Shown here in pieces: positions 50,919-60,419 of a DNA stretch of 64,000 nt. Origin of the DNA: Teretinema zuelzerae (GTDB lineage: Bacteria > Spirochaetota > Spirochaetia > Treponematales > Treponemataceae); assembly GCF_021021555.1 (NCBI RefSeq), contig NZ_JAINWA010000003.1, positions 186,001 through 250,000 on the forward strand, in the 5' to 3' direction. The position numbers were made by a program, and so were the translations under genes. The notes below the pieces were generated by a model, which was not told where the DNA came from, made no database searches, and saw nothing but the letters and a program-made list of their open reading frames with translations. Positions within the stretch are counted from its first letter, which is position 1. The number at the start of each line of letters is the position of its first letter.

Positions 50919-52165
50919 GTTCTACCTCCCTGCAGCGCCGCTTCTTCCTCGGCGATAATCTTGGCTTCCATGGCCTTAAAATCCTCTTCGGTCAAATACT
51001 TCCCGGCAGGCCTTTTCCCCCGGGAAGCCCCGGAACTGTCCCCGGCTTCTGCCGCGACCGTAACTGCTTCAAGCTCGAGAATTTCCGCAAAATGCCGGCA
51101 GAAGTTCCGGAAGTTCCAGTACGGCTTTTTCTGTTCCTCAGGCGCTTTTCTGGTGTGCTCAGCGGTCAAATACCAGGCATGGCGCCAAAGCGTAAAATGC
51201 TTCTCCACGGCTCGGGATATTGTTTCCTCGGATGCCCCGGAAAGCAGTTCCGGGAACTGCCAGATTAAGCTTTTAGCATCGGCTACGTCAGATGCGGCGG
51301 GATTCTGGATCCGGCAGGTTCTGGACTGGAACTCTTTGTACCAGCGGAATACGAGGCGCTTCCCAACCTGGTTAACGGCCTGTAGTTCTGTTTCGTTGGG
51401 GTTCCAGTTCCAGTGCCGGGAGGGAGGTGCCTCCGGATCGTCGGAATCGATGTGCAGTTCGTGCGGAGAGAGAGACATTTCCTTTTTCGTTTCAAGCATT
51501 TCATTCTTCGCTTCAAGCATTTGTTGCCCAGCACCGGTGTACCGGTCTACCGCACCCCCTGAAAACAGGGGTACCGGCGAACCGGTATAGCGGTCGTCAG
51601 GAGTACCGGCTTCCCGCTGTAGCTGTTCTTCGGTGTATCTGGCCAGTGGTACACCGGCATTCTCTCCGTCCCGTTCAGGACCATCGAAAAAGATATCCTC
51701 TGCGGTGAGCACCGCCTCTTCTGCTCCGCCTGTTTCCGGGGCTACAGGGGCCGGATCAGGGAAAGGAACCTCTACGGAATCATCCGGGCGTGAGAGAGCG
51801 GATGAAGGAATAAAGCAAATTCGAATATACGCCGGCCCCATTTTCCCGTTAATGCGGTCCTGTACGTACTTTATCAGGCCTTTTCGGTGCAAAAATGTCT
51901 TTGCGCGCCGGATAGCTTCCTTCCCGAGAGGAAGGGCGTTCGAAAGGTATACGTCATTTGCCCATACCTGATTTGTCTCCTGCAGCCGTGCGGTATAGAT
52001 CAGGTGCTGGTACACCATATTCGCGATTAAACCATCTTTCCCGTGTGCCAGGAACATGCTGTAAAGCCCCACCGAAATAGGAATAATGTCGTATGATTTT
52101 TCAACGCTGATCTGCTCCACCCGCTCCCGGAGGGCCTGTTTATCGTCAACAACGGTTATGGTCAT
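50915..52165 (-). CDS. Phage replication initiator-like protein (winged-helix N-terminus)
   Basis: 416 aa. Residues about 25-125 look like a replisome-organiser winged helix (NAL PLGKEAIRRAKTFLHRKGLIKYVQDR). The middle (about 150-240) is low-complexity with repeated DRYTG. The C-terminal part (about 265-380) is helical and aromatic, resembling DnaB/DnaD-type domains. The low-complexity middle coincides with DNA iterons, as in lambda O where the origin lies inside the gene. ATGA overlaps on both sides. Confidence 0.65.
   Translation of the reverse strand: MTITVVDDKQALRERVEQISVEKSYDIIPISVGLYSMFLAHGKDGLIANMVYQHLIYTARLQETNQVWANDVYLSNALPLGKEAIRRAKTFLHRKGLIKYVQDRINGKMGPAYIRICFIPSSALSRPDDSVEVPFPDPAPVAPETGGAEEAVLTAEDIFFDGPERDGENAGVPLARYTEEQLQREAGTPDDRYTGSPVPLFSGGAVDRYTGAGQQMLEAKNEMLETKKEMSLSPHELHIDSDDPEAPPSRHWNWNPNETELQAVNQVGKRLVFRWYKEFQSRTCRIQNPAASDVADAKSLIWQFPELLSGASEETISRAVEKHFTLWRHAWYLTAEHTRKAPEEQKKPYWNFRNFCRHFAEILELEAVTVAAEAGDSSGASRGKRPAGKYLTEEDFKAMEAKIIAEEEAALQGGRT
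51470..51658. other. Candidate phage replication origin: iterons plus AT-rich tract
   Basis: On the minus strand the word CCGGTAC/TGYACC recurs five times within 51531-51658 (for example GCCGGTACTCCTG, GCCGGTACCCCTG, ACCGGTACACCGGT), with a hairpin CCCCTG-AAAA-CAGGGG in the array. A purine- and AT-rich tract with two copies of ATGCTTGAA follows at 51470-51530. This is the lambda ori order: iterons, then AT-rich DNA, inside the initiator gene. Confidence 0.5.
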
Positions 52166-53019
52166 GACTGTACCCCCGCGGGCGCCGGGAACATCCGTTT
52201 AGCAAGCCATACTTCACCCTTGCCGGTAACGTAGGTCTGGGAAGAAAGATGTGCGCTTTCCTCATCGCCGTAGGTGCGTTCCTTTACCACGAAATACCCA
52301 AGATCGATGTATTCCTGGTGAGGGATCCAGTTGCCCCGGAGACGATACAGGATTTTCCGGCCGGAAAGCATCTCAAAGAGCTTCCGTGGCCCGATTCCGT
52401 TGATCTTCGCGACTTCGGTAATGGTTTTGAGTCCTTCCGCTATCGCGATCGTTCTGGCGACGCGGGCATCGTCGGCAAGGGAAGCAATCCGTTCCGCCTG
52501 CTTCCGGATAACCTCCTGCGCGGCCTGCAGGCCCCGGACCATTACCATTTCAGGCGTGTTCCAGGCGTTTTCGATGGAAATAAAGTGCTCCCGGACGGCC
52601 TTTCCGGCGCTCGTGTTGGTCATCAGGGCGATGTGCTTGGCGGCGTCTATAGTGAGGGAATAATCGGTGCTTGGGCGGCCGGTTTTCCCTGCGGGAGTTT
52701 TTCCCAATTTTGTGAAAAAGTCGATGCCCTGCTGGAAATTGTTGCGCTCGATCTGGTATTCCATCCAGTCGGTAAACTTTCGGTTGCTCTCAAGGGCTTC
52801 CCAGAGCATCCGGGCATCCACCGGAAACGGTTTGGCGGCATCAGCAAGGGATACAAGTTCAAGGGGCTTCCGGGGTGTGTCTGTTGTTTTTTCGTGTTCT
52901 ACAACACAGGGAACGTTGCCTGACTCATCCTCGGAAGTACTTCCGAGGTACGGTTTCCGTTGCTCTCCGGAAAACAGGTCTCCGGCATAGCCTTCCGCCG
53001 GGGGAACAAAATTCGTCAT
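52162..53019 (-). CDS. Antirepressor, AntA/AntB plus KilAC domains
   Basis: 285 aa. An AntA-type domain at about 65-160 (DARMLWEALESNRKFTDWMEYQIERNNFQQGIDFF, then IDAAKHIALMTNTSAGKAVREHFI) and a C-terminal KilAC/ANT domain at about 190-280 (TITEVAKINGIGPRKLFEMLSGRKILYRLRGNWIPHQEYIDLGYF). Such proteins bind and inactivate the prophage repressor. As the repressor here lacks a self-cleavage domain, this gene is the likely induction trigger. Second gene of early operon II. Confidence 0.85.
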   Translation of the reverse strand: MTNFVPPAEGYAGDLFSGEQRKPYLGSTSEDESGNVPCVVEHEKTTDTPRKPLELVSLADAAKPFPVDARMLWEALESNRKFTDWMEYQIERNNFQQGIDFFTKLGKTPAGKTGRPSTDYSLTIDAAKHIALMTNTSAGKAVREHFISIENAWNTPEMVMVRGLQAAQEVIRKQAERIASLADDARVARTIAIAEGLKTITEVAKINGIGPRKLFEMLSGRKILYRLRGNWIPHQEYIDLGYFVVKERTYGDEESAHLSSQTYVTGKGEVWLAKRMFPAPAGVQS

Positions 53020-53309
53020 GATTGACTCCTTTTCTCCGCTACCGGGGCGATACCAGTGCTTCGTTTGTTGAATATTTTCGGTTCAAACCCAAAGTACAGG
53101 GCTTGGATAACGTTCTCGAGAATGTAGAGCGCCTGCGCTTCCTCCGTTCTCCGTTCCATCCGGGAGATCGTCCGGAGGTACCGGGCGGTCGTAGGGTCAA
53201 GATCAAGCGAAATCGTCGCTTTCCGGGGCGCTCTCGTGCGCCTCGTGGCTTCGTTTGCGGTCGGTAGTCCGGACGTGCCGGTACCGTCATGGGCAGTCTT
53301 TTCCTGCAT
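53016..53309 (-). CDS. Ribbon-helix-helix-like DNA-binding protein
   Basis: 97 aa. ATG at 53309 follows GGAAAGGAAAC; a longer frame to 53705 crosses the leader and promoter and is rejected. The core RKATISLDLDPTTARYLRTISRMERRTEEAQALYILENVI has the strand-helix-helix layout of Arc/CopG-type regulators. First gene of early operon II, so it may control its own promoter or the structured leader. Confidence 0.6.
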   Translation of the reverse strand: MQEKTAHDGTGTSGLPTANEATRRTRAPRKATISLDLDPTTARYLRTISRMERRTEEAQALYILENVIQALYFGFEPKIFNKRSTGIAPVAEKRSQS

Positions 53310-53558
53310 GCTTAGTTTCCTTTCCCCGGTCGCTGGTTTCGGCAACGGTTCCGGGGCAATAGGGATAATTTGCAGGGTATACAAACAAAAGGCCACAAAG
53401 GCAGCCTCTTGGTCGAAACCCTGCAAACCAACGACTAAGCGGCGTTGATAAACAGGCCCAAGAGGCCACCTTTCTGGCCTATTATGAGTCCTTGATGTAT
53501 CAGTGTTTCCGCTTAGTTCGATGTGAGTACGGGGACTGGTTTCGGCAGTTGACCCGTA
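53310..53558 (-). promoter_or_regulatory. Highly structured leader of early operon II
   Basis: About 250 nt without a gene between the promoter and the first ATG. Three long inverted repeats interlock along the RNA: a1 (53509-53517) with a2 (53434-53442), b1 (53458-53466) with b2 (53404-53412), c1 (53418-53427) with c2 (53369-53378), in the order a1 b1 a2 c1 b2 c2. A simple 6-bp hairpin (53463-53480) overlaps b1. A third copy of the a word (ACTAAGC, 53310-53316) touches the start codon and could pair with a2. A 12-bp direct repeat (53333-53344, 53536-53547) frames the region. Confidence 0.6.
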
Positions 53559-53565
53559 CAAGAGC

Positions 53566-53594
53566 AGAATAAACGGTGTGCAAGGATTTGTCAA
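53566..53594 (-). promoter_or_regulatory. Promoter of early operon II
   Basis: On the minus strand TTGACA (53589-53594), 17 bp, TATTCT (53566-53571). Transcription should start near 53559. No copy of the repressor operator is visible here, unlike at PR. Confidence 0.7.
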
Positions 53595-56855: not shown

Positions 56856-57211
56856 CAGTTCTCTCCTACTGTTCGTCTTTCAAACGGGATCGGATTGATT
56901 CCGTCGAGATCGGGTTGATTAATCGGGCCGTTTACATACGCTTCAACAGAGCGGCCATTGAAAGCGAAGGAAACAGTTGATTCATGGGGATTCATGGGCG
57001 CCAGGCTGGAAGATACCTTTACCTTGCTTGTGGCCATGCTCCGATCTGCCATGGGTTTGAGTTCGATCTTTATAGTGATCGCCCTCACAGCGGTTGGGGA
57101 TGTATTATCATCCGCGATGTTTTTTAACGCTTTTTCGAACTCTTCCTCGAAAAGCTCCAGGACGGCTCCGCTATTCAGGGTTGAAAGCGTCACCAGTCGG
57201 TCGTTCTGCAT
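56855..57211 (-). CDS. Conserved early phage protein of the kind labelled replication terminator protein
   Basis: 118 aa, first protein gene of early operon I, after AGGAGGT. LNSGAVLELFEEEFEKALKNIADDNTSPTAVRAITIKIELKP and a later MNPHESTVSFAF give the usual pattern of this family. The name is a database label for relatives; no biochemical evidence is known to me. The upstream 230 nt are non-coding leader. Confidence 0.55.
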   Translation of the reverse strand: MQNDRLVTLSTLNSGAVLELFEEEFEKALKNIADDNTSPTAVRAITIKIELKPMADRSMATSKVKVSSSLAPMNPHESTVSFAFNGRSVEAYVNGPINQPDLDGINPIPFERRTVGEN

Positions 57212-57213
57212 AC

Positions 57214-57387
57214 TTACCTACCTCCTAAAAAGAAGCTGTTGCCTGGGACCGGGGGGATTCGAACCCCCTGATCTTCTGATCCAAAGAAGTAAAACGCCGA
57301 TGTACAGTCCCGAAAAAAAGAAAAGGTCAGATGTTCGTCACAGCAAAGATCGCCCCCGGTTCGCCCGGGCAGTGCCGTAAAAAACAT
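57214..57387 (-). CDS. Doubtful leader ORF, 57 codons
   Basis: ATG at 57387 has GGAGG 10 nt upstream and the frame is open to 57214. However, its coding part is the hairpin and the tRNA-like sequence, and GSEDQGVRIPPVPGN is the kind of peptide produced by reading through a tRNA. If translated it would act as a leader peptide that melts the hairpin. More likely a by-product of the RNA structures. Confidence 0.25.
   Translation of the reverse strand: MFFTALPGRTGGDLCCDEHLTFSFFRDCTSAFYFFGSEDQGVRIPPVPGNSFFLGGR
57244..57311 (-). ncRNA. tRNA-like element in the early leader
   Basis: 68 nt that fold like a tRNA: acceptor GGGACTG (57305-57311) with CGGTCCC (57245-57251), one G-U pair, then unpaired A; a perfect T-arm GGGGG-TTCGAAT-CCCCC (57252-57268); anticodon stem CTTCT/AGAAG with a seven-base loop TTGGATC (formal anticodon GGA, Ser). 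The D-arm space is only 13 nt with no good stem, and position 37 is a T. Either a degenerate phage tRNA, a tRNA mimic or a relic of an older attachment site. Confidence 0.5.
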
Positions 57388-57397
57388 CTGACCTTTT
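57321..57397 (-). terminator. Long perfect hairpin with U-tract in the PR leader
   Basis: On the minus strand AAAAGGTCAGATGTT (57383-57397) pairs over 15 bp with AACATCTGACCTTTT (57321-57335), enclosing an inner CCCGG/CCGGG hairpin, followed by CTTTTTTT. An early terminator or attenuator about 120 nt after the start of PR; it predicts antitermination or a short abundant leader RNA. Confidence 0.7.
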
Positions 57398-57423
57398 CCT
57401 CCGGTGCGATTTGCCGGATTAAA

Positions 57424-57502
57424 ACTACCCAAATCAGTAGTTTTATTCATCGTACTACCGATTTAAGTACTTGTCAACAAGGAAAATACTGAAATTAGTA
57501 GT
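57424..57502. promoter_or_regulatory. Three repressor operators O1-O3
   Basis: 18-bp sites at 57424-57441 (ACTACCCAAATCAGTAGT), 57454-57471 (ACTACCGATTTAAGTACT) and 57485-57502 (AATACTGAAATTAGTAGT). Centres are 30 and 31 bp apart, about three helical turns, so all face the same side of the DNA. O1 covers the start of PR, O2 lies between its -35 and -10, and O3 covers the -35 of the repressor promoter. Confidence 0.75.
57449..57477 (-). promoter_or_regulatory. PR: promoter of early operon I
   Basis: On the minus strand TTGACA (57472-57477), exactly 17 bp, TACGAT (57449-57454); start near 57442. Operator O2 fills the spacer. Confidence 0.72.
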
Positions 57503-57517
57503 TTTCTGTACGATAAT
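57489..57517 (+). promoter_or_regulatory. PRM-like promoter of the repressor, leaderless geometry
   Basis: CTGAAA (57489-57494), 17 bp, GATAAT (57512-57517), then 6 nt to the repressor ATG; no Shine-Dalgarno sequence. As for lambda PRM, the message would start at the AUG. Confidence 0.55.
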
Positions 57518-57523
57518 GAAAGC

Positions 57524-57871
57524 ATGAACTTTTGGAATCGCACAAAAGTTGAAGTTGAAAAACAGAACACAACTTTTAGATGGATAGCTGAGAAACTCGG
57601 AATACCGGAAACGACAATCTCCGGATGGCGTAAACAAGATATCTTGCCACGCGCAGATATTGCTGTAGAAATTGCTGGTTTATTCGGTGTTTCAGTTGAA
57701 TACCTGGTTACTGGCGCAGATCGACAGGTAAAAGTATTAAGAGATAGCGAAAAAGAAATTATTAATTTTATGCATGACCTTTCCGAAGATGATATAGAAG
57801 TTCTTCTCTGTACTGTAAAGGCCCTTGGAAAAAGAAAAGCTATTGATCTTTCAACCCAAACGGCTGGGTAA
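57524..57871 (+). CDS. Prophage repressor, XRE-type, without peptidase domain
   Basis: 115 aa. Helix-turn-helix at about 16-60 (TFRWIAEKLGIPETTISGWRKQDILPRADIAVEIAGLFGVSVEYL), then a 50-residue helical tail for dimerisation (DSEKEIINFMHDLSEDDIEVLLCTVKAL). There is no S24/LexA-like peptidase domain, so RecA-stimulated self-cleavage is not expected and an antirepressor is the probable inducer. Divergent from early operon I with the operators between. Confidence 0.88.
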   Translation: MNFWNRTKVEVEKQNTTFRWIAEKLGIPETTISGWRKQDILPRADIAVEIAGLFGVSVEYLVTGADRQVKVLRDSEKEIINFMHDLSEDDIEVLLCTVKALGKRKAIDLSTQTAG

Positions 57872-58992: not shown

Positions 58993-59020
58993 AGGCCGGG
59001 TCTCCCCGGCCTCTTTTTTT
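58993..59020. terminator. Terminator between the lysogeny gene and integrase
   Basis: AGGCCGGG (58993-59000), loop TCTC, CCCGGCCT (59005-59012), then CTTTTTTT. Serves the rightward gene; on the other strand it follows the integrase stop with a shorter U-run. Confidence 0.85.
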
Positions 59021-60221
59021 ATCCCAACTTCCAGAATCCATTCACCGCAGGCAGGACTTTATCCCGGTATTCGTCCAGGCGTTCTTCAAGGACAGGGCGG
59101 TCATAGTGGTCCGTCATGCTGTCGGTTTTATGACCGATGATATCCCGGAGCATTTCGCGCGGGATCGCGTTTTTCATCCTGGTGTTATAGGTATACCGAA
59201 GTCCGTGGAAGGTTATCCGCCGGCCGGAAAGATCGATTCCGGCTTTTTTCATCGCCGCGCGAAACCGCTTCAAAAGATACCCTGATGAAATACTATGCCC
59301 GCGGTAGGTGAACAATAACCCCGGGTGATCGCCCCGGAGCTCTATCCAGCGCGTCAAAATGCTCATTGTATATACCGACATCGGAACAACCCGGATACGT
59401 GGATCAGCGGCGCTTCCCTTCTTAACATGATCGGTTTTTCCCTTTTCATCCAGGGCGCGGTCAATAATCAGCCCCTTCCCCGGAACGATCTGATCCATGG
59501 AAAGAGCCAGTGATTCGCCGGATCTGAGACCGCAGGATACCGCGATCGCCGAGAGTGTCGCAAAACACCGCCCCGGAATGGGGTCCCCTTCGTCGCTATC
59601 GGTTTCCCAGACTTTCCCGAATTCCTCCGGAGCAAACGGGAATAATCGTTGTAATTCCTGTTCGGTAAGGGTGTTCTGTCGCTTCGAATTGCGGGCATAT
59701 GTAACGAATGTCGGGACAGAAGGAATCAAGCCGTCGAAATGGGCTTCCCTGAGAATAATCATAAGGGTGTCTTTTATGGAGTTCTTCGCAGATCCTGATA
59801 GCGGCCTGGACGGCTTCTCGTTTCGTCCGATTGTCCGGGCGTCGAGCAGATTAAGATCAAGAGCCTTCGCCGTGATAGAGTCCAGGAACGAGCTTCCAAA
59901 CCACGGAATGAGATAGTTTTTCAGGTAGGCATGATGATTGGCCAGCGTGCGGTTTTTGGGATTCTTCCCATGTTTATTCCACCGCTTCACGATAGGACCT
60001 TTCGGATCAAAGAACTTTTCAGCGTAATCCAGGAACAAGGTTCTTTCCGAATTCCGCCTCTTTTGTTCTTCAAGAATTTCAAGACGCGCCAGAAAAGCCT
60101 TTGCGTCAGACCTTTTTGAACAGCCGGTTGACCGGCGGACGCGCTTCCCGTTCTCATCGATGTAGTGGAAATAAAAAAACGTTTGGCCATTTACCAAACG
60201 CTCGTACAGGGTGTATTCCAT
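59019..60221 (-). CDS. int: Tyrosine site-specific integrase
   Basis: 400 aa. Catalyses integration at tRNA-Val and, with a helper, excision. N-terminal arm-binding and core-binding domains (to about 180), catalytic domain with the first arginine in SCGLRSGESLAL, the lysine region near KKGSAADPRIRVVPM, H-x-x-R in FHGLRYTYN, and the late histidine and tyrosine in IIGHKTDSMTDHYDR. The gene lies 125 nt from attR. The Shine-Dalgarno sequence AAGGA sits in the loop of a small palindrome ACCGTAAGGACGGT (60227-60240). Confidence 0.95.
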   Translation of the reverse strand: MEYTLYERLVNGQTFFYFHYIDENGKRVRRSTGCSKRSDAKAFLARLEILEEQKRRNSERTLFLDYAEKFFDPKGPIVKRWNKHGKNPKNRTLANHHAYLKNYLIPWFGSSFLDSITAKALDLNLLDARTIGRNEKPSRPLSGSAKNSIKDTLMIILREAHFDGLIPSVPTFVTYARNSKRQNTLTEQELQRLFPFAPEEFGKVWETDSDEGDPIPGRCFATLSAIAVSCGLRSGESLALSMDQIVPGKGLIIDRALDEKGKTDHVKKGSAADPRIRVVPMSVYTMSILTRWIELRGDHPGLLFTYRGHSISSGYLLKRFRAAMKKAGIDLSGRRITFHGLRYTYNTRMKNAIPREMLRDIIGHKTDSMTDHYDRPVLEERLDEYRDKVLPAVNGFWKLG

Positions 60222-60343: not shown

Positions 60344-60388
60344 TTTGGGCGCTGAGGGGATCGAACCCCCGACATTCTGGGTGTAAAC
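60344..60388. repeat. attR: 45-bp repeat within the restored tRNA-Val
   Basis: Exact copy of 30858-30902. Here it continues into the tRNA 5' half, so integration keeps a complete tRNA at this end. Confidence 0.93.
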
Positions 60389-60419
60389 CAGACGCTCGTA
60401 CCAGCTGAGCTAAGCGCCC
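60346..60419 (-). tRNA. tRNA-Val (anticodon UAC)
   Basis: 74 nt. Acceptor GGGCGCT/AGCGCCC with discriminator A, D-arm GCTC...GAGC, anticodon stem TCTGG/CCAGA with loop TTTACAC (anticodon TAC), T-arm CGGGG/CCCCT-type with TTCGATC. CCA is not encoded. It is the prophage attachment gene and stays intact, its 3' half now supplied by the phage copy. Confidence 0.95.

Follow-up and report, generated by a model that had tools for sequence, protein, structure and literature searches.

The prophage locus and its antirepressor operon

The window, by which we mean the whole 64-kb stretch of DNA analysed here, is made up in part of a prophage whose antirepressor operon is encoded on the minus strand (Table 1). 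A leader precedes a gene for a 97-aa protein starting at 53309, and the end of this gene overlaps the start of the next by 4 bases. Domain matches to AntA and KilAC in the second gene agree with the earlier note, which had placed an antirepressor downstream of the leader. The 97-aa protein is without a family match in Pfam, NCBIfam or the PHROG matched by Icd of phage P1, and its structure model, which is of low confidence, has one long helix; Pfam gave no match to the ribbon-helix-helix fold that the earlier note had assigned to it. The search for relatives of this protein drew a blank in viral contigs; in genome contigs it returned a single one, at the homologous locus described below.

A promoter-like site with 10 of 12 consensus matches lies upstream of the leader and may serve as its promoter. 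If it is used, transcription would start near 53560, just ahead of the hairpin that presents the first target word. We note that the intergenic sequence ahead of the repressor-like gene (57205-57530) has repeated ACTAC/GTAGT elements of operator-like appearance, together with a long inverted repeat formed by AAGGTCAGATGTT ... AACATCTGACCTT. Another stretch (57240-57300), GGGACCGGGGGGATTCGAACCCCC, is similar to a portion of a tRNA gene and received no Rfam tRNA call; it lies between the early operon and the repressor-like gene. An operator common to this intergenic sequence and the promoter of the antirepressor was looked for, and nothing convincing was found.

Table 1. Features of the prophage and of the antirepressor operon leader, in window positions; words are given as RNA
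Feature	Position	Strand	Description
Integrase gene	59019-60221		adjoins tRNA 60346-60419
Repressor-like gene	57524-57871		
Terminase, portal, protease and capsid genes	between 48 and 43 kb		
Promoter-like site	53566-53594	minus	TTGACA-17-TATTCT; same in MAG11
Upstream target word 1	53538-53544	minus	CGAAACC; in hairpin loop
Upstream target word 2 (arm a1)	53511-53517	minus	ACUAAGC
C4-like antisense RNA domain	53390-53480	minus	closing helix, extended hairpin, 7-nt junction
Arm b1	53458-53480	minus	5' arm of closing helix
Antisense word 2 (arm a2)	53434-53440	minus	GCUUAGU; in 9-nt loop of hairpin 53449-53427
Arm c1	53418-53427	minus	UUUGCAGGGU; pairs with c2 in the alternative fold, in which the closing helix is open
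Antisense word 1	53414-53420	minus	GGUUUCG; mostly in 7-nt junction
Arm b2	53390-53412	minus	3' arm of closing helix
Arm c2	53369-53378	minus	ACCCUGCAAA
Ribosome-binding-site target word 1	53335-53341	minus	CGAAACC; 5' of Shine-Dalgarno, in hairpin loop
Shine-Dalgarno stretch	53318-53327	minus	GGGGAAAGGA
Ribosome-binding-site target word 2	53310-53316	minus	ACUAAGC; 3' of Shine-Dalgarno, abuts AUG at 53309
First operon gene	53016-53309	minus	97 aa; in the position of icd in P1
Antirepressor gene	52162-53019	minus	AntA and KilAC

Two nested words and two exclusive folds in the leader

The earlier note had described three interlocking inverted repeats with the arm order a1 b1 a2 c1 b2 c2 and an extra ACUAAGC between the Shine-Dalgarno and the AUG. 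We located all of these arms on the minus strand, where b1 and b2 form a 23-nt helix with one mismatch, and the extra copy at 53316-53310. A search without a family model, for a pair of words nested as u v ... v' u' ... u v, retrieved CGAAACC and ACTAAGC from the leader; none of 1000 shuffles scored as high or higher, and at this score the pattern is unique in the window on both strands.

The 258-nt leader (minus strand, about 53562-53305) folds at -104.4 kcal/mol, compared with -74.2 +/- 5.0 kcal/mol for dinucleotide shuffles (z -6.07; 0 of 200 shuffles), and its opposite strand is less remarkable (z -2.91). Within the leader, the C4-like domain has a fold of -55.4 kcal/mol, with a z of -7.4 when the domain is taken alone (53482-53388).

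The most stable fold of the full leader in the window combines a1:a2 with c1:c2 (-104.4 kcal/mol), and the closed fold, in which b1 and b2 pair, lies 9.4 kcal/mol above it. Comparison of the two reveals mutually exclusive folds rather than one double pseudoknot, which settles in favour of the former the choice that had been offered for the crossing arms. When the chain is folded as growing prefixes, the leaders of both the window and the homologue from Treponema sp. MAG11 pass through the closed fold, the window leader starting from a1:a2 and later returning to it. In the full leader of MAG11, the closed fold is itself the most stable, with a probability above 0.999, and the alternative fold is therefore not conserved as a ground state. 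Since the closed fold is common to P1 and to the ground state of MAG11, we take it to be the functional antisense form. Given the 9.4 kcal/mol, processing or kinetics would be needed for the closed form to appear in the window leader, and the alternative fold may represent a precursor in which the upstream words act as decoys. The stem of the C4-like domain starts with GG, as described for processing sites (PMC5320573), a weak sign of the RNase P processing that yields the short RNA in C4. We also find that the b2 arm and a U-rich tail (53411-53386) score as a terminator-like hairpin, which competes with the closing helix.

Concerted rewriting of the words in a homologous leader

The genome of Treponema sp. 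MAG11, from the same genus as the host of the window, contains the sole homologous leader that we found, and it aligns without gaps. The two leaders differ at 32 of 258 bases, and the six 7-nt words account for 15 of these (hypergeometric P 1e-5). The target words of MAG11 are UGAACCC and ACAGAAC, in two copies each, with the complements GGGUUCA and GUUCUGU. Five word triplets have changed in concert, and 14 of 14 three-way pairings are still Watson-Crick in MAG11. When the same number of changes was randomly placed in the 42 word bases, 100000 trials gave at most two concerted triplets. The nested search returned the MAG11 words from the MAG11 leader, again with no equal score in 1000 shuffles. 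Cognate pairings (-9.5 to -12.0 kcal/mol) are stronger than cross pairings (-3.3 to -8.7 kcal/mol), which fits word specificity.

The covariation check that had been suggested thus turned out favourably, on a single comparison because one homologue was found. The earlier idea that a2 can pair with either a1 or the start-proximal copy is likewise upheld, both pairings surviving the concerted substitution. The pairings of the a-words were predicted from the window alone, and MAG11 is therefore an independent test for them; the second word pair was identified with both leaders in view. One pair of leaders has little power for ordinary helices, and a helix shuffle control was uninformative; it is the concerted three-way change that carries weight. 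In the closed domain, all 34 pairs are kept in MAG11, with one compensatory change from U-A to G-C that involves both sides, and a change from C-G to U-G in the closing helix preserves pairing only in RNA. Read from the alignment, all 10 standard pairs of c1:c2 are retained, and the terminator-like hairpin drops one pair while the closing helix is kept.

The first proteins of the two loci are 76% identical. The antirepressor that comes after this leader and first gene in MAG11 is a different one, of the Bro-N plus KilAC kind (L002 2044-2853 onward), and the leader and first gene may therefore move as a cassette, with the promoter-like site at its edge: identity between the two loci starts only 18 bases upstream of where the first promoter-like hexamer ends. 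A second KilAC gene lies just downstream of the MAG11 antirepressor (G026:C180:6249-6536).

A frame upstream of the first gene (53597-53310, minus strand), beginning MLTNPCTPF, is stop-free in both loci. It includes a 13-base word, AATCCTTGCACAC, that overlaps the promoter-like site and also occurs at the start of P1 icd (MVNANPCTRP). The changed codons between window and MAG11 comprise 21 nonsynonymous and 6 synonymous cases, so that a coding constraint on the leader is unsupported.

Comparison with C4 RNA of phages P1 and P7

The anatomy of the locus is colinear with that of the C4 locus of P1, whose record gives the order a1, b1, C4, a2, b2, icd, ant1. In P1 and P7, as in the window, target words are followed by an antisense RNA, by target words at the first ribosome-binding site, by a small gene and by a KilAC antirepressor; the KilAC domain is found in P1 Ant1, and icd and ant1 overlap by 4 bases, as do the two genes of the window. 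The nested search, applied to P1, returned exactly the annotated a and b sites (TTGACAG and GTTAGTG), and no shuffle in 1000 scored as high. The spacings in P1 and in the window are similar, at 14 and 27 bases between the upstream targets (in C4 loci, the sites of Rfam RF03163), 13 and 20 bases between the antisense words, and 29 and 25 bases between the targets at the ribosome-binding site. Similarly to C4, the closed domain has two 7-nt antisense words: one occupies a hairpin loop and the other a 7-nt junction ahead of the closing helix, and both are complementary to targets that occur upstream and again at the first ribosome-binding site. In P1 and in the window alike, the start-proximal target is the partner of the loop word, and the distal target that of the junction word. 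Between P1 and P7, four triplets have changed in concert, in the manner seen between the window and MAG11.

There are also differences. The closing helix, loop word and junction of C4 are present in the window domain, but the first of the two inner hairpins of C4 (with a UUCG loop in P1) is absent. A short helix is stacked under the loop hairpin and the closing helix is longer. The second target word lies between the Shine-Dalgarno and the AUG, the first gene is not Icd-like as it is in the immI operon, and the host is a spirochaete. The Rfam C4 model RF01695 scores P1 at 68.8 bits as a positive control and gave no match to the window or MAG11 leader at E up to 10. Because the Rfam model does not match, and because the locus departs from C4 in its inner fold and in its first gene, we describe the leader RNA as a new variant of the C4 type and do not assign it to RF01695, the two-hairpin feature also being absent.

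Among other immunity and leader RNAs, the CI RNA of satellite phage P4 is similar in that this immunity RNA arises by processing of a leader and has complementary copies on both sides, upstream and downstream, and the IsrK region of the Salmonella prophage Gifsy-1 in that a prophage operon with this leader RNA leads to an antirepressor gene (PMC4825925). P4 CI RNA differs in acting by transcription termination and not on an antirepressor operon. The IsrK Rfam model scores the P1 region, below cut-off, and gave no match in the window.

Rfam scans of the window and the leaders, at gathering thresholds and at E 10, yielded only one tRNA and chance matches of microRNA or snoRNA type, and the C4 model gave none above cut-off in the sampled spirochaete genomes. 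The leader DNA and its translated frame, searched against phages and plasmids, gave nothing above chance, and a DNA-pattern scan of viral contigs gave 0 matches. A covariance model built from the two leaders, whose score is strand-asymmetric (121 vs 43 bits), found no third member among 265 genomes of the family or 296 of the phylum. At other antirepressor loci of the family, among the matches listed, the nested two-word pattern occurred only as low-complexity matches.

An antisense RNA that may control the antirepressor

The anatomy of the leader, the shuffle statistics, the concerted change in MAG11 and the colinearity with P1 together make it very probable that a C4-type antisense RNA encoded in the leader prevents translation of the first gene, hence of the coupled antirepressor, and confers prophage-specific immunity. 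The antisense RNA would be about 91 nt long (near 53480-53390) and would come from the same transcript as its own target. Its closed stem would display GCUUAGU in the hairpin loop and GGUUUCG in the junction, the former pairing with ACUAAGC between the Shine-Dalgarno and the AUG and the latter with CGAAACC just upstream. These pairings would bracket the ribosome-binding site and thus leave the first gene untranslated; the antirepressor would be silenced with it, because its start lies within the last bases of that gene. The RNA would build up in a lysogen and act in trans, as P1 C4 RNA does in repressing Ant synthesis (PMC8546580), and an incoming phage with the same words would be silenced. 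In a fresh transcript, the upstream copies would bind the antisense words and oppose the closed fold, and a newly arrived phage could therefore make antirepressor before the RNA accumulates. The on/off translation switch envisaged earlier accordingly stands in outline, though the second word pair, the closed-stem domain and the C4 precedent had been missed.

A switch that works in cis, the antisense words pairing the upstream copies (on) or the copies at the ribosome-binding site (off) with no separate RNA, would account for the stability of the alternative fold in the window leader, for the excursion of the growing chain through the closed fold and back, and for the intact c1:c2 pairs of MAG11. 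We consider it improbable, as the closed fold is the most stable at full length in MAG11 and the antisense words sit within one self-contained domain, as in P1, whose RNA acts in trans (PMC8546580). Premature transcription termination by an antisense RNA, in the manner of P4 immunity, would be in keeping with the pairing of P4 CI RNA to one upstream and one downstream copy (PMC4825925) and with the terminator-like score of the b2 arm and its U-rich tail. Yet this hairpin loses a pair in MAG11 where the closing helix does not, and two words with targets at the ribosome-binding site, followed directly by the open gene and the antirepressor, fit C4 better; we regard termination as very improbable.

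The repeats could also be DNA operator half-sites for the first protein or another regulator, the copies having changed together with the protein. A concerted change of every copy would be expected here too, and the first protein is 24% different between the loci. Several features nevertheless belong to RNA: the antisense copies fall in a loop and a junction and the target copies flank the Shine-Dalgarno, the closing-helix change from C-G to U-G keeps pairing only in RNA, and the model score is asymmetric between strands. Moreover, two distinct words stand in strict nested order, P1 matches the same nested pattern, and a DNA-binding fold of the first protein is unconfirmed by its low-confidence model. 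Binding sites for the first protein, which the earlier note had entertained, are therefore disfavoured, and we give operators in general hardly any credence.

Beyond the C4-type antisense RNA that we favour, it is conceivable, if rather unlikely, that spirochaete phages evolved a two-word nested antisense immunity RNA independently of P1-like phages, with the metastable leader as an antirepressor timer. The balance between the closed antisense fold and the upstream-decoy fold would then set the timing of antirepressor expression.

Implications for treponeme prophages

A difference of 4 nt is enough to stop cross-reaction between C4 RNAs (PMC5320573). The window and MAG11 loci are a natural pair with rewritten words, and therefore offer a ready test of specificity. 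The nested two-word search, being free of a family model, could be used to look for further such loci. Listed C4 RNAs come from Proteobacteria and their phages (PMC2864571), the only groups in which this kind of switch has been catalogued; a treponeme prophage appears to carry one as well, and a sister prophage the same switch with rewritten words. From such a diverged locus, antisense control of antirepressors would seem to be more ancient or wider in distribution than model searches show, or to have arisen twice.
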